Assembly (NCBI GenBank): GCA_000424365.1
Contig: AUJT01000007.1
Coordinates: forward strand, 62,001 to 126,000
DNA length: 64,000 nucleotides
Reading direction: 5' to 3'
Source: Lachnospiraceae bacterium NK4A144
GTDB taxonomy: Bacteria > Bacillota > Clostridia > Lachnospirales > Lachnospiraceae
The position numbers were made by a program, and so were the translations under genes. Each line of letters opens with the position of its first letter. Within the stretch, counting starts at the first letter, position 1. Of this stretch, positions 20,772 through 47,443 are shown piece after piece. The notes under the pieces are model-generated. The model was not told the DNA's origin, did not search any database, and saw nothing but the letters and a program-made list of their open reading frames with translations.

Positions 20772-20915
20772 GTTACAGTTCATACGTAAACGGAGCATTT
20801 ACTGCGGAGTTTACGATCAAGAACGTTGAAAAGCATTTGATTTTGCCCATCGCCGAAGGCGATTTAATTGGCAAAATCCGTTACGTGAGCGAGCTGTAAG
20901 CGAGTGAACAGTAAC
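20772..20915 (+). mobile_element. MITE-like repeat, copy 1 (144 bp)
   Basis: The copy runs from GTTACAGTTCA to TGAACAGTAAC, imperfect inverted ends, and holds an inner hairpin (GATTTTGCC / GGCAAAATC enclosing ATCGCC / GGCGAT). It is flanked by AGTGATTC and AGTGATCC, an 8-bp duplication with one difference. It shares its 3' half with copies at 36776 and 37699. It carries no gene. Confidence 0.82.
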
Positions 20916-36775: not shown

Positions 36776-36976
36776 GTTACAGTTCAGACGTAAACGGAGC
36801 ACTACGCTGCGGATGCTACGAACACTTAGCGAACGAATGTGAGCTTAGTGAGAGTGTATGCTTTAGCTGTTTACGACCAAAAAAGATGAAAAGCCATTGG
36901 ATTTTGCCCATCGCCGGAGGCGATTTAATTGGCAAAATCCGTTACGTGAGTGAGCTGGAAGCGAGTGAACAGTAAC
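36776..36976 (+). mobile_element. MITE-like repeat, copy 2 (201 bp)
   Basis: This is the longest copy, from GTTACAGTTCA to TGAACAGTAAC, flanked on both sides by the identical 8-bp sequence GAAAGATC. It keeps the inner hairpin and has about 60 extra bases in its 5' half. It ends 30 bases before the HD-domain gene, so the promoter or leader of that gene has been displaced or replaced. The open frame across it is a by-product of the repeat. Confidence 0.88.
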
Positions 36977-37698: not shown

Positions 37699-37812
37699 GT
37701 TACAGTTTACGACCAATAACGCTGAATAGCCATTGGATTTTGCTCATCGCCGTAGGCGATTTAATTGGCAAAATCCGTTACGTGAGCGAGCTGTAAGCGA
37801 GTGAACAGTAAC
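37699..37812 (+). mobile_element. MITE-like repeat, copy 3 (114 bp)
   Basis: The shortest copy runs from GTTACAGTTTA to TGAACAGTAAC and is flanked on both sides by the identical 8-bp sequence CTTAAGAA. It has lost much of the 5' half but keeps the hairpin GATTTTGC / GCAAAATC with ATCGCC / GGCGAT inside. Confidence 0.88.
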
Positions 37813-38653: not shown

Positions 38654-39181
38654 ATGATCGTTCTTTCTATTGATATTCAGAAGGGTATAACGGATAACAG
38701 GTTATACGCTTGTGAGTCGTTTATCAGGAATGTTACGAGGATAATCAGCGTTGCCAGACAGAATAATATCGAGGTCATACATGTCAAACATGATGATGGA
38801 CCGGGCAGCGGCTTTTCTGACGGAGACGAAGCATTTGAAATAGATGACAGGGTAGCACCTCATCCGGACGAAAAGGTCTTTGTGAAAAACATCAATAGTT
38901 GTTTTGGAAACAGGGAACTGACGGAATATCTGAAAGATAAAGAAGAGGGAACACTGGTCATCGTAGGGCTCATGACGAATTACTGCATCGATGCATCTGT
39001 GAAATCTGCATTTGAGAGAGGCTACAAAGTAATTATTCCGGAGCTTACAAATTCTACTTTTGATAATGACTACATGAATCGGGAAAGAACTTATAAATAC
39101 TATAACGATATGATGTGGCCGGAGCGCTTTGCTCAGTGTATTTCAGTGGAAGAGACCATAGCACTGATGGAGAGCAGATAA
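38654..39181 (+). CDS. Isochorismatase-family cysteine hydrolase
   Basis: This 175-residue protein is a small member of the isochorismatase / nicotinamidase fold. The catalytic triad is visible: Asp7 in LSIDIQKG, Lys78 in VFVKNINSCF and Cys111 in LMTNYCIDASVKSAFERGY. It would hydrolyse an amide or related bond; the substrate cannot be told. GGGGGAGAAAGGG precedes the ATG at 38654, so this start is preferred to the GTG at 38612. A strong terminator follows. Confidence 0.88.
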   Translation: MIVLSIDIQKGITDNRLYACESFIRNVTRIISVARQNNIEVIHVKHDDGPGSGFSDGDEAFEIDDRVAPHPDEKVFVKNINSCFGNRELTEYLKDKEEGTLVIVGLMTNYCIDASVKSAFERGYKVIIPELTNSTFDNDYMNRERTYKYYNDMMWPERFAQCISVEETIALMESR

Positions 39182-39199
39182 AGGCAGGATAATAAAGAG

Positions 39200-39247
39200 T
39201 AAAAAGGCAAAGACGCCGTTATAATGCGAGCGTTCTTTGCCTTTTTG
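39200..39247. terminator. Bidirectional terminator
   Basis: AAAAAGGCAAAGACGC pairs with GCGTTCTTTGCCTTTTT with a small bulge. A and T flanks allow use by the plus gene and by the convergent minus gene. Confidence 0.9.
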
Positions 39248-39326
39248 CGTGGTAATAGAATGAAAAAAATGGAGAAATCTGATGATAGCGTTAAATGATT
39301 ATTTGTATTTACATTTCTTGATCTGG

Positions 39327-39869
39327 CTATTGATTAAATTCATAAAGGTCGGTCAGATGCTCGATCTGTGTTCCGTTCATATCGTAATAAATAGTCTTAC
39401 CGTCATCAGTTTCATTAACGCCAGCTAACGTAAATATTTCTTTGGATCCTGCTACGAATACATTCTTGTATTCGTAGTAGTCGATCCATTTATCAATAAA
39501 ATCTGTCTCATATCCAACAAATGTCTGACCGTCTATGGTGTCTACTCTTTCTTTGCGCAGGACAGCAGTACCGATGACCAGCAACGGAAAGCGTGCAAGC
39601 CATAAAACGATCAGGAGTCCGAATAAAGCGAGGAGCATTTTCATTCTTTTCCAACGATCCTTTTGAGTTATTATCTTGTAAATAACCCATATAGTCGTTA
39701 AGAAAAAACTGATCGCGATAAGGCTGTTTGTTACCCAGGCTCTATACTGTAGTCCTATTACGCTTAGAAACAAATTGCTTGCGCACCAGAAAACACCTGT
39801 CCAAAAGCCGATTATTATAGAGTTATTTAGTATATTAAGGAATGTGTCTTTTGACGATATCTGATTCAT
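39327..39869 (-). CDS. Hypothetical membrane protein, three helices plus extracytoplasmic domain
   Basis: About 180 residues. Three hydrophobic segments are visible (IIIGFWTGVFWCASNLFL, SLIAISFFLTTIWVIYKI and LLALFGLLIVLWLARFPLL). A C-terminal domain of about 75 residues follows, beginning VIGTAVLRKERVDTIDG. I do not recognise the family. AAAAGGA precedes the start chosen at 39869 on the minus strand; the longer frame to 39905 has no such site. It follows a broken gene by 13 bases, probably once in an operon. Confidence 0.6.
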   Translation of the reverse strand: MNQISSKDTFLNILNNSIIIGFWTGVFWCASNLFLSVIGLQYRAWVTNSLIAISFFLTTIWVIYKIITQKDRWKRMKMLLALFGLLIVLWLARFPLLVIGTAVLRKERVDTIDGQTFVGYETDFIDKWIDYYEYKNVFVAGSKEIFTLAGVNETDDGKTIYYDMNGTQIEHLTDLYEFNQ

Positions 39870-39882
39870 ATCTGTCCTTTTA

Positions 39883-40267
39883 TTAATCATCTTTGTGATT
39901 TTCATACTGTTCTTTATAGTATGAACCGTCTTTACCCTTAAATGTTACTTCATACATATCAGAAAAGTAAGCATCACTTTCGCCGACACCCGTATCGGAT
40001 GCGATGCAATGCTTCTCTATATAATTAACATCCTTATAACTATTATACCAATCTGCATGAAATTGATTTTCTACTGCAAAAGAATATATATCCGGATTTT
40101 CAGTTGTAATTAGTAGTAAAGCGTTCTTTTCATCTTCTGTGTGATTATCTGGATATTGGATAATTATTGTATTTGTTTTTTTGTCATAAATACCCTTGTA
40201 TCTGTATTTTTTGATACAAACTCAAAATTTTTTTGAACATGTCATTATTCATATTTTCAGGCACCAT
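39883..40267 (-). pseudogene. Frameshifted small protein gene
   Basis: On the minus strand an ATG at 40267 opens MVPENMNNDMFKKILSLYQK, which soon hits a stop. Removing one A from the run of six near 40214 joins it to a continuous downstream frame (for example KGIYDKKTNTIIIQYPDNH, then EKHCIASDTGVGESDAYFSD) that ends at 39883. The product would be about 127 residues, acidic and without a known family. A homopolymer indel is the simplest cause, either a true mutation, phase variation or a sequencing error. No start codon exists inside the downstream frame for most of its length. Confidence 0.45.
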
Positions 40268-40417
40268 GCTGTATGTGCATTAACCATAGTACAACTTTTT
40301 GTGCATTAGTTCATTTGTAAATTCTTAATTTTTTTTTGAATATTTATTAAACCTTAAAAGACAGCAGGGGAATGCGAATCGTATCTGTGAAGGTACTGAA
40401 CAGATACATTATTTTTA

Positions 40418-40489
40418 TAATCGAAAGTGACTCATCGAGAGTCACCATATAACCCGGGAAAGGGGCTCCGTCTTCGGACGGGGTCACTA
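40418..40489 (+). ncRNA. Structured 71-nt RNA-like element, copy 1
   Basis: Two hairpins are joined by the conserved linker ATATAACCCGGGAAAGGGG: GTGACTC / GAGTCAC with a 5-nt loop, and CTCCGTC / GACGGGG with a TTCG loop. It aligns without gaps to copy 2 at 45430. Differences in the stems keep pairing, including T-A to G-C at the first stem and C-G to T-A at the second. A further hairpin (GTATCTGT / ACAGATAC) lies at 40381-40407. The bases from 40268 to 40380 show nothing else. Confidence 0.7.
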
Positions 40490-40501
40490 TTTAAGTGTGA
40501 A

Positions 40502-40586
40502 TTGACAAACTAATTAAAACTAATTAAAATAACAGAAACTAATTAAAACTAATTAAAACGTGGAAAAGTAATTAAAACTAATTAAT
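40502..40586 (+). promoter_or_regulatory. Promoter filled with AACTAATTAAA direct repeats
   Basis: TTGACA (40502-40507) and TAAAAT (40525-40530) are separated by 17 bp. The unit ACTAATTAAA, itself built on the palindrome TTAATTAA/TAATTA, recurs five to six times between 40509 and 40586. Repeats cover the spacer, the -10 box and the transcribed leader, so a bound protein should block transcription of the ATPase gene. Confidence 0.7.
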
Positions 40587-40604
40587 AGATGTGGAGGCTG
40601 GACT

Positions 40605-41645
40605 ATGGGCAACAATCCATATAGTTTAACTTTTGGAAAGATTCCATATGAGTTGATATCAAGAAGTAATGAAATTGGTGAAATGATCGATAATTTTAAT
40701 TCAGAAACACCCAATACTTCTGTTTATATAATAACCGGAGTAAGAGGCTCCGGTAAGACCGTAACGATGTCAGCAATCATAGAAAAACTGAAAAAAGATA
40801 AAAAATGGATCGTAATATCGTTAAATGCGAATAGGGATATATTGCAGTCTTTTGCATCCAGTCTTTACGAAGAGACTATGATGAAGCCTTTGTTTGTGGA
40901 AGCGGGAATTGGAATAAATACTCCGATTGGAGTTTCATTTTCAAGTAATGGTCCGGTACCTGATGTGGAAGTACAAATAAAAAAGATGCTGAATGTGGCT
41001 AAGAAACATAAGAAACGAGTAATGATCGCGATTGATGAAGCTACAAATGATATGAATTTCAAAGTGTTTGCAAGTTCGTATCAGATGATGCTTATAGAGG
41101 GACTGCCGGTATATCTTATCATGACCGGTTTGTATAAAAATATTAACTCGCTTCAAAATGAAAAAAATCTGACATTTTTATACAGAGCTCCGAAATATGA
41201 ACTTAAACCATTGAGTATAATAGCTATGTCGAATAATTATAAAAAAAATATCGACATTACAGAAGAAGAAGCAGTACAAATGGCGAGGCTTACCAAGGGT
41301 TATTCCTATGCATTTCAGGTCCTTGGTTTTCTAAAGTGTAAGACAGGTAAGCCTATTGATGAGATTATTCCTGAATATGATGAGATGCTCGAAAGATATT
41401 GCTATGAGAAAATCTGGTCGGAGCTGACAGAGCGGGAAAAGGAGATAATGCGCCTTCTTGTCATGAGTAAAGACGGAAGGATGAAGGCTAAAGATATTAA
41501 GAAAAAAACCGGACTTACAGATCAGTCGTATCCGACATATAGAAAGTCATTAAGTATGAGCGGAGTTATTGATACCAGTGATTACGGGTATTGTGAAATA
41601 GCACTACCCCGCTTCAAGGAAATAATTAAGCGTACTGAATTATAA
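40605..41645 (+). CDS. P-loop ATPase with C-terminal winged helix
   Basis: This 346-residue protein has Walker A at ITGVRGSGKT (about residues 43-52) and Walker B at RVMIAIDEA (about 141-149). A sensor-like YLIMTGLY follows, then a C-terminal winged-helix part (about 275-340; TEREKEIMRLLVM, AKDIKKKTGLTDQSYPTYRKSLSM). It resembles the archaeal-type / MNS clade of STAND-like ATPases, often found in mobile or regulatory contexts. The winged helix makes it a candidate to bind the AT-rich repeats of its own promoter. GGAGG precedes the ATG. Confidence 0.75.
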   Translation: MGNNPYSLTFGKIPYELISRSNEIGEMIDNFNSETPNTSVYIITGVRGSGKTVTMSAIIEKLKKDKKWIVISLNANRDILQSFASSLYEETMMKPLFVEAGIGINTPIGVSFSSNGPVPDVEVQIKKMLNVAKKHKKRVMIAIDEATNDMNFKVFASSYQMMLIEGLPVYLIMTGLYKNINSLQNEKNLTFLYRAPKYELKPLSIIAMSNNYKKNIDITEEEAVQMARLTKGYSYAFQVLGFLKCKTGKPIDEIIPEYDEMLERYCYEKIWSELTEREKEIMRLLVMSKDGRMKAKDIKKKTGLTDQSYPTYRKSLSMSGVIDTSDYGYCEIALPRFKEIIKRTEL

Positions 41646-41662
41646 ATAAAGGCACTTGCAAA

Positions 41663-41848
41663 ATGGAAGAATTTTTATCTGACCTTTTAAAAAAGTTCAA
41701 TGAAATGGATGACGGATTAGAGGAAGCATTCAGGCAAATTAAAGAAAAGAGATACGAAGACGGCATATTGGATGATGGCTATATAGGTTCTGTATCCTAT
41801 GGAATCTGTTTTTGTAAAAAGACCTGTATTGTCGGGTTGATGAAATAA
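41663..41848 (+). pseudogene. C-terminal remnant of an AAA-ATPase-like / PDDEXK_9 protein
   Basis: The 61 codons end EEAFRQIKEKRYEDGILDDGYIGSVSYGICFCKK, split here as EEAFRQIKEKRYEDG and then YIGSVSYGICFCKK. They match the last part of proteins that join an AAA-ATPase-like domain to a PD-(D/E)XK domain, where QI-x-E-K-x-Y and G-I-x-F are conserved. The ATPase part and the nuclease Asp and Glu are missing. There is no strong ribosome site. It is read as a remnant left by recombination next to the intact ATPase gene. Confidence 0.6.
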
Positions 41849-41919
41849 TGTTTACAAATAATGGCAGGAGAATTGTTGGTTACAGCTGTTCCCCTGTCGT
41901 TTAACTTTAAAATAAAAAA

Positions 41920-41942
41920 TCGCAGAAGAACATCTTCTGCGA
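41920..41942 (-). repeat. Left 23-bp inverted repeat of the recombinase cassette / outward terminator
   Basis: The sequence (TCGCAGAAGA, loop ACA, TCTTCTGCGA) is a perfect hairpin. On the minus strand it is followed by a T run, so it terminates leftward transcripts. It matches the reverse complement of 43144-43166 at 22 of 23 positions, including the asymmetric loop. Confidence 0.8.
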
Positions 41943-42172
41943 CTAAAATTTAATCCTGTATTAAGTATACAACTGCAAAAACATAAATGTCAATACAAAA
42001 TAATAAAAATTATAATTAAGACTGACAAATATATGCTTGTAAACATCACATCCTTCTTTCACTTCTTATATCGTCATGTTCTTTCATTTCCAATAGGGGT
42101 AATTTCATTTTTTATTTTTCTGTGCATACTAAGTTTTGTTGATCAAATTTGAAGTACACAGAGGAGGAGAAG
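41943..42172. other. AT-rich region ahead of the tyrosine recombinase
   Basis: No gene is visible. AT-rich runs and T tracts prevail, and a GAGGAGGAG ribosome site ends the stretch. A promoter for the recombinase is expected here but was not fixed. Confidence 0.4.
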
Positions 42173-43135
42173 ATGAATAAAGAAGTAATATCCGGCAATG
42201 AACGAAAAGCAGGAAAGGTGTCAGAGGTAAGCAATGCATGGCTTAATGAGGCGGCACTTACACTAAAAGAATCATCAATAATAAAGTATGAAGACATATT
42301 GAAAAATTACATTTTGCCGGTATACGGAGAAATGGATTTTTCGATGATAACAAATATGGATCTGGTGAATTTTGTCGACGAACTTCGCAGAACAGGAGGA
42401 ATAAAAAAGCAAGGACTTTCTCCGGCTACAATATCAGAAGTTATTACGACAATGAATTTACTGAGAAGCTATGTACAGAGGAAAAACTTGATAGTTTTAT
42501 TTAATCCGCATTGCGTTAATATCAAGCATGATCGTCATGATATAAGGGTTTTTAGTATTTATGAGGAGAATAAGCTGATCAAGTATCTGAAAAAGAAGGA
42601 TGATCTGACATCAGTGGGTATCTTGATATGTCTTTATACCGGAATACGTATTGGGGAATTGTGTGCACTTAAGTGGAACGATGTTAATTTAAGTGAAAGA
42701 ACTATGAAGATAGGTAAAACGATGCAAAGATTGAGAGTTTATGGTAAGGAACATAAGACTGAAGTGAAAATACTGGATCCCAAGAGTGACCATTCTGTTC
42801 GAATCATTCCAATACCTAAGGTTTTAGTAAGAATTCTAAAACCACATTTTACAAAAGATGCATTTGTATTAACAGGTGATACAGAAAAGTTCGTTGAGCC
42901 AAGAGTGATGCAAAACAGATTTAAGAAAATACTTCAAACATGCGGGATAAAGGATGCAAATTTTCATTCAACGCGACATACATTTGCAACGCGATGTGTG
43001 GAATTGGATTTTGATATCAAATCATTGTCAGAAATATTGGGGCACTCCAGTGTGACAATAACATTAAACAGGTATGTTCATCCAACGATGAAATTGAAAC
43101 GTGAAAATATGAATAAGCTTAAAGAATTGTTTTAA
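42173..43135 (+). CDS. Tyrosine site-specific recombinase
   Basis: This 320-residue integrase has an N-terminal SAM-like core-binding domain (about residues 15-110) and a catalytic domain with all expected residues: Arg in YTGIRIGELCAL, the Lys region after KWNDVN, HSTRHTFAT (His and Arg), LGHSSVTITLNRYVH (His and nucleophile Tyr). The ATG at 42173 has GAGGAGGAG ahead; the frame also opens at 42149. It lies between two 23-bp inverted repeats that read as outward terminators, and directly upstream of csrA and flagellin. It may move or invert its own segment. Confidence 0.9.
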   Translation: MNKEVISGNERKAGKVSEVSNAWLNEAALTLKESSIIKYEDILKNYILPVYGEMDFSMITNMDLVNFVDELRRTGGIKKQGLSPATISEVITTMNLLRSYVQRKNLIVLFNPHCVNIKHDRHDIRVFSIYEENKLIKYLKKKDDLTSVGILICLYTGIRIGELCALKWNDVNLSERTMKIGKTMQRLRVYGKEHKTEVKILDPKSDHSVRIIPIPKVLVRILKPHFTKDAFVLTGDTEKFVEPRVMQNRFKKILQTCGIKDANFHSTRHTFATRCVELDFDIKSLSEILGHSSVTITLNRYVHPTMKLKRENMNKLKELF

Positions 43136-43143
43136 GTAAGGAT

Positions 43144-43166
43144 TCGCAGAAGATGTTCTTCTACGA
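43144..43166 (+). repeat. Right 23-bp inverted repeat of the recombinase cassette / outward terminator
   Basis: TCGCAGAAGA, loop TGT, TCTTCTACGA forms a hairpin that extends further with AAGTAAGGAT / ATCCTTACTT and ends in a long T run (to about 43181). It is the inverted partner of 41920-41942 and terminates recombinase transcription. Confidence 0.82.
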
Positions 43167-43221
43167 ATCCTTACTTTTTTTGAATGGATTTAAATTTGGA
43201 ATCATGCAGGAGGCAGAGGAT

Positions 43222-43476
43222 ATGTTGAAGCTCAAGTTGAAACCGACAGAATGTGTTGCAATTGGAGAAAACATAAAAGTGATCTACACGGGTGGGTCTA
43301 AAGAAAATATTTGTTTACTGATAGACGCTCCGAGGGAAATCCGGATATCGCGTGAGATCGACATCAATCGCGGTGATTCATCTCCATATAAAAAGGATGA
43401 AATATCGGAAGAAGCACATAACGAAATCAGACAGATTCTCAAGAGGGAGCGGGCAAAGAGAAAACAAAATGCTTGA
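43222..43476 (+). CDS. csrA: CsrA-type RNA-binding translational regulator
   Basis: This 84-residue protein has the CsrA core of five strands and a helix: MLKLKLKPTECVAIGENIKV, then ICLLIDAPREIRISREIDI with the RNA-contacting PREIRISRE-like edge, and a long basic helix (EEAHNEIRQILKRERAKRK). In flagellated Firmicutes CsrA represses flagellin translation. The ATG at 43222 follows AGGAGG at 9 nt; earlier in-frame starts (43153, 43204) lie in or before the ribosome site. It is placed 134 bases before flagellin. No fliW gene is next to it. Confidence 0.85.
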   Translation: MLKLKLKPTECVAIGENIKVIYTGGSKENICLLIDAPREIRISREIDINRGDSSPYKKDEISEEAHNEIRQILKRERAKRKQNA

Positions 43477-43621
43477 TCAGATAATAGCACTGGCAGCCAT
43501 GGAGTCAGCGTTTATTATACATACTTTCAATCAAATCACTCTCTACGCAAGGAAGTGTAGGGAACGGGTACTGACAAAAGGAATTGAAGTACCAAACAAG
43601 GAGGTTAAATATGGCAAATAG
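43470..43621 (+). CDS. Possible 50-residue ORF between csrA and flagellin, doubtful
   Basis: An ATG overlapping the csrA stop (AATGCTTGA) opens [20 protein letters not shown] and ends 11 bases inside flagellin. It has no ribosome site of its own, so only coupling could translate it. The same bases form the flagellin leader, which is the more likely role. Confidence 0.2.
43567..43604 (+). promoter_or_regulatory. Candidate CsrA-binding hairpin and ribosome site of flagellin
   Basis: GGTAC (43567-43571) and GTACC (43589-43593) close a loop that displays AAAAGGAAT, with the GGA that CsrA favours. Sixteen bases further a second GGA is inside the AAGGAGG ribosome site (43598-43604). Two GGA sites, one in a hairpin loop and one on the ribosome site, match the arrangement known for the Bacillus hag leader. 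Confidence 0.55.
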
Positions 43622-45392
43622 CGTACAGCACAACATTACAGCACTTAATGCAAACAGAAACTTTGGTATCACACAGGCAACAGTAGCTAAGTCAACAGAG
43701 AAGCTTTCATCCGGTTACAAGATCAACCGAGCAGCAGATGATGCAGCAGGTCTTGCAATTTCTGAAAAGATGAGAAAGCAGATCAAGGGTCTTACCCAGG
43801 CATCCGCTAATGCACAGGACGGTATCTCCGCTGTACAGACAGCTGAAGGTGCACTGACAGAAGTGCATGAAATGCTGCAGAGAATGAATGAGCTTGCAGT
43901 AAAGGCTTCCAACGGAACAATGTCCGAGAATGACAGAGCATCCGTACAGCAGGAAGTTGACCAGCTCATCACAGAAATTGATCGTGTTGCCGAGACAACA
44001 AAGTTCAACGAGACCTATCTCCTGAAAGGCGCCGGTGACAAGAGCAAGTATGTTAAGGGTGAGGCTACACTTAACGGAACAACGGCAGATGCTGTAAAAC
44101 TTTCAGCAAAAGGTAATGTATTCGCTGCTAATATTACTTCGCAGCTTGGTACTGATACAGAAGATACAGCCACAATCACTTATAAAGATGCAGAAGGAAA
44201 GACCAGGACAAAGGACATTACGTTTAAGATTGGGGCTGATGATGAAAGGTCTGCAAAGAATTTTGCGGATGCAATTGCAAAAGATGAGGATTTGAGTAAA
44301 ATTTTCAATTCTTCATCCAAGGGTTCCAAGCTTATTGTGGAGTCTAAGTTGAACGGAAATAAGACAGACTCCGCTGCAAATGCGATTACAGGTATTACTT
44401 TCAATACGGATGCAGCAAGGGTTACAACTATAACGAAGGACTCTTCTTTAAGTTCGGATGCTACAGGCGAAGGAGTAGCTATCGCATTGGCAAAAGCGTC
44501 TGTCTCCAGTGGTACAACACAGCTTACGGATGGAAGTACCATTACTATTGATGGGAAAACGTATACTTACGATTCAGGATATGACTCTAGTGCCGCTACT
44601 GGAGATACTAACAGGTTTAAGACCCTTGATGATTTACAGAAACTTTTAGGTGATGAGTATGATGTTTCTGTAAATGTGACAGCTACTCAAACAAAGACAA
44701 CATATTCACGAAGTGACGAAGGTGCAACAAAGGCAGATAACGATAAGCCTATAGCTGGAAAGACTGTAGCTTCTGAGGTGTCGTATAAGCTGGATGACCT
44801 GACAAAAACAGCGGTGTTAGCTACATTAACTGATGCTGGTGCACCTGCTGAGGTTGCTGCGCCGACTAAGAATTCTGAAGTTAATACTGCTAATAATATA
44901 AAGGCTACAAAGGATTCTCTTTCTTATAGTGATATAACGGTTTCGCTGAATATTTCGCGCAAGTCAAATCTGCAGATTGATGATGCATTGGAGCTTAAAC
45001 TTCACGTTGGTGCTGATTCCACTGAAGAGAACAAGATTGGTCTGAAGATTGATGCAATGCACGCAAAGGGACTTGGAATTGATGGCCTGAAGGTTGATGG
45101 TTCTACAAGTGCTAATGCTGATAATGCTATTGACACTATTGCAAACGCAATTCAGAAGGTATCAAATCAGAGGTCTGATCTCGGTGCTATCCAGAACAGA
45201 CTTGAGCACACAATCAAGAACCTCGACAATGTAGTTGAGAACACAACAGCTGCTGAGCAGGCAATCCGTGATACAGATATGGCAACAGAGATGGTTAAGT
45301 TCTCCAGTGCTAATATCCTTTCACAGGCAGGTACATCAATGCTTGCGCAGGCAAACCAGAGCAATCAGGGTATTCTGTCACTTCTCGGCTAA
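43611..45392 (+). CDS. Flagellin
   Basis: The 593-residue protein has the conserved flagellin ends. N-terminal D0/D1 covers about residues 1-145 ([41 protein letters not shown]). C-terminal D1/D0 covers about 505-593 ([37 protein letters not shown]). The middle 350 residues, Thr/Asp/Lys-rich, form the variable surface domain and use a less optimised codon set than the ends, as if exchanged. AAGGAGG precedes the ATG at 43611. Export is by the flagellar type III route, so no signal peptide is expected. It follows csrA and a recombinase. Confidence 0.95.
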
Positions 45393-45429
45393 TTGCAGTA
45401 TTTTCGCTAACGAATAGTAGATTATTTAA

Positions 45430-45502
45430 TAATCGAAAGTGACGCGTCAGGCGTCACAATATAACCTGGGAAAGGGGTTCTGTCTTCGGACGGAATCCCT
45501 TT
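45430..45502 (+). ncRNA. Structured 71-nt RNA-like element, copy 2, in the flagellin 3' region
   Basis: GTGACGC / GCGTCAC and GGGGTTCTGTC / GACGGAATCCC (TTCG loop) are joined by ATATAACCTGGGAAAGGGG. It begins 37 bases after the flagellin stop. The second hairpin with its TTT tail can act as the flagellin terminator, but the conserved first hairpin and linker go beyond a simple terminator. Gap-free alignment with copy 1 gives 12 differences in 71, and those in the stems preserve pairing. Confidence 0.75.
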
Positions 45503-45523
45503 AAACTTTAGATAAAATAATGT

Positions 45524-45532
45524 TGATATAAT
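45524..45532 (+). promoter_or_regulatory. Extended -10 promoter of the ncRNA gene
   Basis: TGATATAAT is a TGn extended -10 element with a perfect TATAAT. No good -35 box lies at the usual distance. Its expected start point, about 7 bases downstream, falls at the first base of the long stem at 45541. Confidence 0.65.
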
Positions 45533-45540
45533 CGCTATCA

Positions 45541-45740
45541 GGAAATGGGCAGCATTGATTTCCATAAGTGCCCCCAATAAGGAACCGCATAGAAGAGATC
45601 CACTGCATACGAAGACTAGGCACGCAGGGCAAGAGCGATACCGAAAGCAAATGTCCTGCGTGCTTTAGTCGAAGTAAGCAGTTAGCTCTTCGTAATGTCG
45701 GTTCTCCGGGACGCGTTGGAAACAATGCTGCCCATTTCCG
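45541..45740 (+). ncRNA. Rod-like ncRNA of about 200 nt, 6S RNA candidate
   Basis: The ends pair over 17 bp without mismatch (GGAAATGGGCAGCATTG with CAATGCTGCCCATTTCC), then TTTCC / GGAAA after one bulged base. Inside, GGAACCG / CGGTTCT, AAGAG / CTCTT, CTGC / GCAG, GACTA / TAGTC and the distal stem GCACGCAGG / CCTGCGTGC continue a long rod with internal loops. Length, rod shape, large internal loop after the closing stem and a private promoter suit 6S RNA (ssrS). I could not confirm the family from sequence alone; no SRP or tmRNA signature is present. Confidence 0.6.
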
Positions 45741-45757
45741 TCATGCCTTCAAATAAT

Positions 45758-45947
45758 GATGTAAGGGTCAAAAGTAAATTTTGCCCCTTACTGATGTCAC
45801 GGATTGCTTTATTGCTACGCAATTCCCGCAATCCTAAAACACTCGCATTCCGCGTAATAACGCTATATGTTCGTGTTTTGCGGGTCCCAAGGTCTCAATC
45901 CTCTTTGTGCAAGCACAATCGGATTTTGACCTTTTGACCCTGACATC
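45758..45947. mobile_element. Second inverted-repeat element (190 bp) with 7-bp target duplication
   Basis: Ends GATGTAAGGGTCAAAAG and CTTTTGACCCTGACATC are inverted repeats with one difference, and the 7-bp sequence AAATAAT flanks both sides directly. Inside are hairpins such as GTAAGGGTCAAAA / TTTTGCCCCTTAC. There is no gene. It differs from the repeat family at 20772. Confidence 0.7.
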
Positions 45948-45967
45948 AAATAATTATAAACTAGTAC

Positions 45968-47332
45968 TTATTTCGCCATATCACTGTGAAGCTTTGATGC
46001 GAGTAACTCTGTGAGACCGTCTGTCTGTGTGGGGAATGCCCAGATCGTTCCCATCATCTGCTCCATTGTCATGCGGGCATTGACGATGAGTGTGACAGTA
46101 TTGATCATTTCTGCTGCCATATCACCGTAAAGCTCTGCTCCGACAAGGTAATTATCTTTGTCCAGAACGATAGTTGCCTCAGCGTCTGTCTCATTTCTAA
46201 ACTCAAATGAGAGCATCTGACCGTACGCGATCTTTTCGATGTGATACATCTCAGGGTCTTTCAACGCCTGATTTACGGAAACGCCAACTGCAGCGATACG
46301 AGGCAGAGTGAATACCACATTTGGAACCGCCGGATATTTAATAGGCTGCGGATTTCCGAGGATCGCAAGAGCGATGTAGTTTGATTCAAACGTAGCTGTA
46401 GGAGTGAGACGAGGGATCATCTTATCAACTACGTCACCACTTGCGTAGATATTAGGCACGTTTGTACGCATATGATCGTCAACCTTCACACTGCGAGGAC
46501 TGAATTCTACGCCGACATTCTCAAGGCCAAGACCTTCAACATTTGCGCGGCGGCCTGTTGCAGCGAGGATATAGTCTGTTTCAACTGTGAGGCCGGAAGC
46601 AGTTTTAGCGATATACTTATCACCGGATTTTTCAACGGATGCTAAGGATTCACCAAAGTGGAAATCAACACCGGCTCCCTTCAGCTTATCAACGATCCTC
46701 ATAGCATATTCTTCACTGTAAGCGAGGAGTGCTCTGTCTGCGAATTCGATGACTGTAGCTTTAACTCCAAACTGTGTAAGGAGTGAAGCGAATTCCATGG
46801 AGATGATACCTGCGCCGATGAAGGTGATGTGCTTCGGAAGTTCGGGCAGATCAAGGATCTCACGGCTGGTATGCATATATTCCTTGCCCGGTATATCGAG
46901 CTTAAAATCATTCTGACCTGTGCAGATGACAATGTTTTCTGCAGTAACAGTCTGATCCCCAACCTTTACGGTGTGCTTATCAACAAATTCTGCGCTGCCT
47001 CTGATAATGGGGAATCCGGCATTATTAAGCATACCTGTCATCACGTTTGCAAGAGGATCGATCACCTGATGCTTGTAGGACATAAACTTCGGCCAGTCCA
47101 TCTTTATATCAGCGGTAAGACCGAGATCCTTGTATCTTTCCAGTGCAGAGACAAGTTCTGCAGGTCCGTCAAGGAGAGCTTTGGCATCGCATCCATAGTT
47201 TGTGCAGGTTCCACCTGTCAGATCCCTCTCGGCAAAAGCAACTTTCTTACCTGCTCTTGCAAGGATAAGTGCGCCATGCCATGCAGCATGTCCGGAACCA
47301 ATGTAGAGTACGTCGTAATCAAAATTTGCCAT
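45968..47332 (-). CDS. FAD-dependent pyridine nucleotide-disulfide oxidoreductase family protein
   Basis: The 454-residue protein has an FAD-binding start (YDVLYIGSGHAAWHGALILARAG), the redox pair in GGTCTNYGCDAK (C-x4-C), a NAD(P)-binding GAGIISMEFASLLTQFG and the second FAD motif NIYASGDV. The C-terminal interface reads WAFPTQTDGL where classic glutathione- or lipoamide-type reductases have HPTxxE, so the His-Glu base pair is absent. It is probably a reductase with an unusual acceptor. AAAGGAAG precedes the start at 47332. The gene stands alone on the minus strand. Confidence 0.85.
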   Translation of the reverse strand: MANFDYDVLYIGSGHAAWHGALILARAGKKVAFAERDLTGGTCTNYGCDAKALLDGPAELVSALERYKDLGLTADIKMDWPKFMSYKHQVIDPLANVMTGMLNNAGFPIIRGSAEFVDKHTVKVGDQTVTAENIVICTGQNDFKLDIPGKEYMHTSREILDLPELPKHITFIGAGIISMEFASLLTQFGVKATVIEFADRALLAYSEEYAMRIVDKLKGAGVDFHFGESLASVEKSGDKYIAKTASGLTVETDYILAATGRRANVEGLGLENVGVEFSPRSVKVDDHMRTNVPNIYASGDVVDKMIPRLTPTATFESNYIALAILGNPQPIKYPAVPNVVFTLPRIAAVGVSVNQALKDPEMYHIEKIAYGQMLSFEFRNETDAEATIVLDKDNYLVGAELYGDMAAEMINTVTLIVNARMTMEQMMGTIWAFPTQTDGLTELLASKLHSDMAK

Positions 47333-47400
47333 GATAGTATCTTCCTTTCTGTAAAAGCTTTGTATTTTGTTGTTATGTATAAGTTCTAAAAAGCGATTCA

Positions 47401-47443
47401 ATTGTATGCAATATAAAATACATTGTGTGCAATCTATTGTCAA
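47401..47443 (-). promoter_or_regulatory. Promoter with two 12-bp operator repeats for the oxidoreductase gene
   Basis: ATTGTATGCAAT (47401-47412) and ATTGTGTGCAAT (47422-47433) are direct repeats 21 bp apart, two helix turns, and each is a partial palindrome (ATTG...CAAT). On the minus strand TTGACA (47443-47438) lies 17 bp ahead of TATTTT, and the repeats cover the spacer and the region beyond the -10. A MarR- or GntR-type repressor is likely; none is encoded next to it. Confidence 0.65.

Follow-up and report, generated by a model that had tools for sequence, protein, structure and literature searches.

Results

Position of the element and neighbouring genes

The window analysed here, a stretch of 64,000 nucleotides from Lachnospiraceae bacterium NK4A144, carries on its plus strand an ORF (43584-45392) in which Flagellin_N and Flagellin_C were found by domain search. 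An element of two predicted hairpins (copy 2; 45430-45502, plus strand) lies in the 3' UTR of this flagellin gene and starts 38 nt past the stop codon. Copy 1 is located 5012 nt upstream at 40418-40490, likewise on the plus strand, and unlike copy 2 it is not immediately preceded by a gene. A convergent ORF on the minus strand (45968-47443), assigned by domain search to a pyridine nucleotide-disulphide oxidoreductase, would be faced by hairpin 1 of copy 2. The stop of this ORF is about 510 nt away and two repeat elements intervene.

Directly 5' of the flagellin gene, within 43222-43612, an ORF of the CsrA family was detected (Pfam 44.4 bits, cut-off 27). The flagellin 5' leader contains five ANGGA sites (P = 0.0006 with single-base shuffles), two of them in predicted hairpin loops. 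As judged from the sequence, the CsrA-family ORF and the flagellin gene likely form a CsrA-controlled unit. Another CsrA match of this genome is situated on contig C3. Near the flagellin gene, a tyrosine integrase ORF (42149-43135) was found, which is kept in Lachnospiraceae bacterium MC2017 (hereafter MC2017). Palindromes with a similar core bracket the integrase at 41920-41942 (seen by eye) and 43134-43176, the whole region spanning 41920-43176. Integrase, palindromes and flagellin gene possibly constitute a flagellin variation unit.

Between the flagellin and the oxidoreductase ORF, a match to RF01699 (Clostridiales-1 RNA) was identified on the minus strand (45792-45948). This family has at least 52 matches in the same genome (52 of 136 candidates scored) and was found in 22 of the 41 relatives searched, in 20 over the cut-off. 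Inverted repeats lie at its borders. In MC2017 the left border is present at the same place and about 166 nt that span almost the entire match are absent, by insertion in one genome or deletion in the other. In its behaviour RF01699 is closer to a small mobile element than to an ncRNA gene present in one copy. The second neighbour is an imperfect inverted repeat of 199 nt (45541-45739) with no Rfam match at gathering score. Its family occupies four places in this genome, at least seven in MC2017 and at least 16 in genome G262, and occurs in 3 of 48 genus genomes; possibly it is an undescribed repeat or structured element. A further repeat of 108 bp is present in three copies of about 92% identity (20808-20915, 36869-36976 and 37704-37812), which are missing at the corresponding places of MC2017.

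Architecture of the two copies

The copies could be aligned over 82 columns without gaps, in agreement with the original prediction. Nucleotide similarity between them (84%) covers 40405-40481 and 45418-45493. The linker pattern ATATAACCNGGGAAAGGGG matched twice in the window, each time with zero mismatches; 0.04 matches were expected by chance with up to three mismatches. In both copies hairpin 1, with 7 predicted pairs, is joined to hairpin 2 by a linker of 13 nt. In copy 2, hairpin 1 (45439-45457), GTGACGC-GTCAG-GCGTCAC, has no wobble pair in the predicted fold and can form on either strand. It is followed on the plus strand by the linker AATATAACCTGGG (45458-45470) and by hairpin 2 (45471-45502), for which 14 pairs including G-U pairs, a UUCG loop and a subsequent imperfect U-tract are predicted. 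A weak A/T hairpin, GATTAT-TTA-ATAATC, is predicted 5' of hairpin 1 (45420-45434, plus strand).

In copy 1, alignment and folding place hairpin 1, GTGACTC-ATCGA-GAGTCAC, at 40427-40445 (either strand). The linker CATATAACCCGGG at 40446-40458 (plus strand) was located by pattern match and alignment. Hairpin 2 of this copy (40459-40490, plus strand) retains 12 of the 14 pairs, the two outer ones being broken, and free folding returned its inner portion only. It was not called as a terminator in the scan and is a probable decayed terminator. The folding z-scores of 86-nt stretches were -5.9 for copy 2 and -3.4 for copy 1. The linker had been described as nearly invariant. Indeed, 18 of 19 bases are identical, but seven of these 19 (AAAGGGG) form the 5' arm of stem 2.

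Changes between the copies

From hairpin 1 through hairpin 2 the copies differ at 13 of 64 columns, 8 of 42 paired and 5 of 22 unpaired. The two double changes reported earlier, T-A to G-C in stem 1 and C-G to T-A in stem 2, were both verified, and they are the only ones. Pairing was also said to be kept elsewhere. This applies to two one-sided, wobble-type changes in stem 2, but not to its two outer pairs, whose loss in copy 1 had gone unmentioned. A further one-sided change preserving a pair of stem 2 was seen only between this genome and MC2017.

With random placement of the same substitutions, two or more double changes arose with P = 0.045 in both directions. The probability of keeping at least as many pairs was 0.0002 or 0.023 for both stems, depending on the starting copy. 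For stem 1 alone it was 0.004 or 0.017 and for stem 2 alone 0.011 or 0.507 by direction; thus, with copy 2 as the start, no constraint is visible for stem 2. Under random placement a single stem often acquired one or more double changes (0.12 to 0.37). A column-shuffle control with all three sequences, the two copies and that of MC2017, was not significant (50 of 500). Pairing was probably maintained during the divergence of the copies, with modest to thin support from the compared sequences. Compensatory changes are expected in the stem of a plain terminator as well.

Copy 2 is identical to its MC2017 counterpart at 83 of 84 positions, and the only difference replaces a G-U pair by G-C. Similarity is about as high in the adjoining block, where 198 of 199 positions are identical in the 199-nt repeat and 1253 of 1333 in the oxidoreductase part; the 26 nt immediately upstream of copy 2 are less similar (20 of 26). 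Special conservation of the element was therefore rejected and no special selection on it is claimed. Of the proposed selection on RNA structure with a fixed linker, a modestly supported structure and a recurrent linker core remain.

Strand asymmetry and terminator scan

G-U pairs occur in stem 2 of both copies, and the corresponding folds of the minus strand are interrupted or shorter. Since these wobble pairs cannot form on the opposite strand, stem 2 is built for a plus-strand transcript. Hairpin 1 with its Watson-Crick pairs is strand-neutral. By the simple scan rule neither copy's hairpin 2 was called as a terminator on the plus strand. In copy 2 the tail, TTTAAACTTT, is T-poor and gives a weak and interrupted U-tract, and copy 1 is without a T-run.

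On the minus strand, hairpin 1 of copy 2 has the sequence GTGACGC-CTGAC-GCGTCAC with TTTCGATTAT as its tail and scored as terminator-like, a result no better than in shuffles (one found, 0.7 expected). No minus-strand call was obtained with this simple scan for hairpin 1 of copy 1. The T-rich tail TTTCGATTAT is identical there; in copy 2 the 3' half of the weak A/T hairpin overlaps it. A role of hairpin 1 as minus-strand terminator would account for the invariance of ATAATCGAAA 5' of it.

Surroundings of copy 1

No plus-strand ORF of at least 60 aa is present between 39182 and 40604, which includes 1.2 kb upstream of copy 1. Thus, the place where copy 1 now lies does not account for its kept stems. 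The search for a flagellin remnant in 39001-42200 gave a best match of only E 3.4. Just past copy 1 an ATPase module begins (40502-41645, plus strand), composed of a promoter-like site TTGACA-17-TAAAAT, repeats of CTAATTAAAA and an ATPase ORF (40605-41645). The promoter-like site at 40502 agrees with 11 of 12 consensus bases; shuffled sequences contained 3.0 such sites on average. DNA homology of the module to genome G264 starts at 40502, the same base as the promoter-like site. In G264 a hairpin with T-rich tail also directly precedes the ATPase module (seen by eye). Of 48 genus genomes, 29 contain relatives of the ATPase (E up to 1e-10), frequently more than one in the same genome. MC2017 lacks the segment 39621-41891, copy 1 included, at the corresponding place and possesses the integrase, the flagellin gene and a single copy of the element.

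Distribution of the element

A DNA search (BLAST) in 61 relatives found the element only in its own genome and in MC2017. From the three copies, two of this genome and one of MC2017, a covariance model (R1) was built. Among 48 genus genomes (E up to 0.1) it matched twice in this genome and once in MC2017, the only two genomes with clear matches. Eight weak matches in seven genomes were obtained in addition (best E 1.2e-4). In the search of 397 family genomes, with E limited to 0.001 and no more than 11 candidates per genome scored, only this genome had clear matches, two in number. Four matches were weak, with E from 2.1e-5 to 9.4e-4 per genome, and MC2017 is not among the matches listed. Both searches covered more than 40 genomes and were run with stricter filters, by which weak matches can be lost.

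Nine of the twelve weak matches were examined in sequence and none was judged homologous, several being plain terminators. The match L089 (E 1.2e-4) consists, by eye, of terminator-like hairpins next to tRNA-like sequence. L092 and L097 resemble coding sequence, and in L090 and L091 hairpin 2 is matched in part only. Of the four weak family matches, three are a hairpin with T-run, and the fourth, L195, is a hairpin that has no T-run on the strand matched. The linker ATATAACCNGGG is present in none of the four. Two of them sit between ORFs that we take, from their protein sequences, to be gap and pgk. Thus, the covariance search proposed earlier recovered clear matches in this genome and MC2017, and the other matches examined did not extend the distribution.

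No match of Rfam 15 at gathering score overlaps either copy in the whole window, in line with the original view that no known family can be assigned. Around copy 2 (45380-45800) the search with E up to 10 gave only chance-level matches far below gathering. The exact linker core was present in three of 200 family genomes, this one and two others whose flanks are unlike the element (by eye). A pattern scan of 84,980 named species returned MC2017 and one Prevotella contig. The latter is without GGGAAAGGGG of the linker and without hairpin 2 and was taken as chance (about three expected by our own estimate). In viral contigs, six matches to the linker alone with surroundings unlike the element were found, and the hairpin-1 pattern had no match. 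Four of the viral contigs (L101, L102, L103 and L105) carry repeated stretches of the GGGGGGACCCATTTTTT type. One of these adjoins ATATAACCTGGGAAAGGGG, whose 19 letters are identical to those in copy 2; this was taken as chance. Plasmids and phages gave no match to the element, and no title among the papers listed by the literature search names such an element.

Linker core in flagellin 3' UTRs

In the 3' UTRs of many other flagellin genes of the genus, a GC-rich hairpin with T-run is seen by eye in the same stretch. The sample for the linker core comprised 70 loci fetched for 143 matches, plus 29 more. Of 63 distinct 3' UTRs of flagellin genes from the genus, 9 contain CCTGGGA. These are copy 2, its MC2017 counterpart and seven others from six genomes. 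A GC-rich hairpin follows in six of the seven, and the seventh is interrupted by Ns. The motif lies 31-43 nt past the stop in the seven UTRs versus 75 nt in copy 2, where hairpin 1 intervenes. It was absent from the first 150 nt of 36 further flagellin UTRs, 35 of them from other genera, and the total stays at 9 of 99. The linker core thus is found without hairpin 1 in flagellin 3' UTRs of the genus. Since it precedes ordinary terminators of these genes, it goes with flagellin 3' ends.

Within this genome WWCCTGGGAAA has nine sites. Two precede a terminator hairpin, copy 2 and a flagellin gene on contig C16. Six are inside open frames of at least 211 codons, and the ninth is L192.

Discussion

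Intrinsic (Rho-independent) terminators include bidirectional ones between convergent genes. The element resembles them in several respects. Downstream of the flagellin gene copy 2 provides a stable hairpin with UUCG loop (14 pairs in hairpin 2, element z of -5.9), the A-rich 5' side pairs with the U-rich 3' side, and two hairpins are placed between convergent genes as in bidirectional terminators. In contrast to a typical intrinsic terminator, the U-tract after hairpin 2 is weak, interrupted and uncalled by the simple scan, and the element has an additional, separate hairpin as well as a recurrent linker. We consider the best explanation, with a probability of roughly 0.7, to be an intrinsic terminator or mRNA 3' end of the flagellin gene that comprises two hairpins, may be bidirectional and was duplicated once. 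On the plus strand hairpin 2 would end the flagellin mRNA and cap its 3' end. Minus-strand transcripts arriving from the convergent gene would be ended by hairpin 1 with TTTCGATTAT as U-tract. Hairpin 1 may also protect the flagellin mRNA from 3' exonucleases on the plus strand. Given a terminator, the chances that the hairpin pair acts in both directions are about even. The two copies would result from a flagellin 3' flank that was duplicated or brought in once, and copy 1 would be the terminator left at the junction where the ATPase module now sits.

The original prediction of a functional RNA beyond a terminator was not supported. A widespread structured RNA family would show homologues in several species, a conserved linker and covariation; here, clear matches are limited to two genomes of two species with two double changes, and CCTGGGA precedes ordinary flagellin terminators. 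The neighbouring RF01699 is separate DNA and the element does not match this family. The flagellin 3' UTRs L049, L052, L034, L023, L025 and L030 are alike in having CCTGGGA shortly 5' of a GC-rich hairpin. They differ from the element in the absence of hairpin 1, the closer position of the motif to the stop and other stem sequences, and most have better T-runs (by eye).

A regulatory 3' UTR RNA, in which the linker CCUGGGAA and the hairpins bind a protein, such as the CsrA-like protein encoded upstream, or an sRNA and so set stability or termination of the flagellin mRNA, appears unlikely. The recurrence of CCTGGGA in nine of the genus UTRs, the excess of WWCCTGGGAAA over the reversed pattern in this genome (nine sites versus two) and the CsrA-family ORF upstream of the flagellin gene would fit such an RNA, but exposed ANGGA sites for CsrA are missing. 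Copy 1 has none, the one of copy 2 is inside stem 2, and the clear sites belong to the 5' leader. Moreover, CCTGGGA is missing from 54 of the 63 genus UTRs and from all 36 further ones, no genome other than this one and MC2017 yielded hairpin 1, and common descent of flagellin paralogues would yield the same linker. A genus-specific variant is slightly less probable still. In this variant CCUGGGAA would be a putative protein or sRNA site, hairpin 1 would have been added in the species pair, and formation or decay of the mRNA 3' end would be coupled to flagellum assembly.

Action at the DNA level, as core site of a tyrosine recombinase or as cassette boundary, seems quite improbable. The copies do flank a 5-kb segment with ATPase, integrase and flagellin genes, the integrase lies between them, hairpin 1 forms a 7-bp inverted repeat with a 5-bp centre, and the segment carrying copy 1 (39621-41891) is missing at this place in MC2017. 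However, recombining core sites require matching centres, and those of the copies are GTCAG and ATCGA. The G-U pairing of stem 2 is characteristic of RNA, and MC2017 has integrase and flagellin gene but one copy only. Least probable, and very much so, is a REP- or MITE-like small mobile repeat. Two copies occur within one window, and two multi-copy repeat families, RF01699 and the 199-nt inverted repeat, are situated within 520 nt of copy 2. Against the at least 52 RF01699 matches of this genome, the element amounts to two copies in the whole genome and one in MC2017, and this low copy number disfavours a mobile repeat.

If the element is a duplicated flagellin terminator, it illustrates that such a terminator can mimic a structured RNA family, and that compensatory changes and a shared linker alone are not evidence for a riboswitch or ncRNA. 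If instead the 3' UTR control applied, flagellum assembly and the formation or decay of the flagellin mRNA 3' end would be linked. The recurrence of CCTGGGA in front of some flagellin terminators is a small, testable lead on the control of flagellin mRNA 3' ends in this genus.
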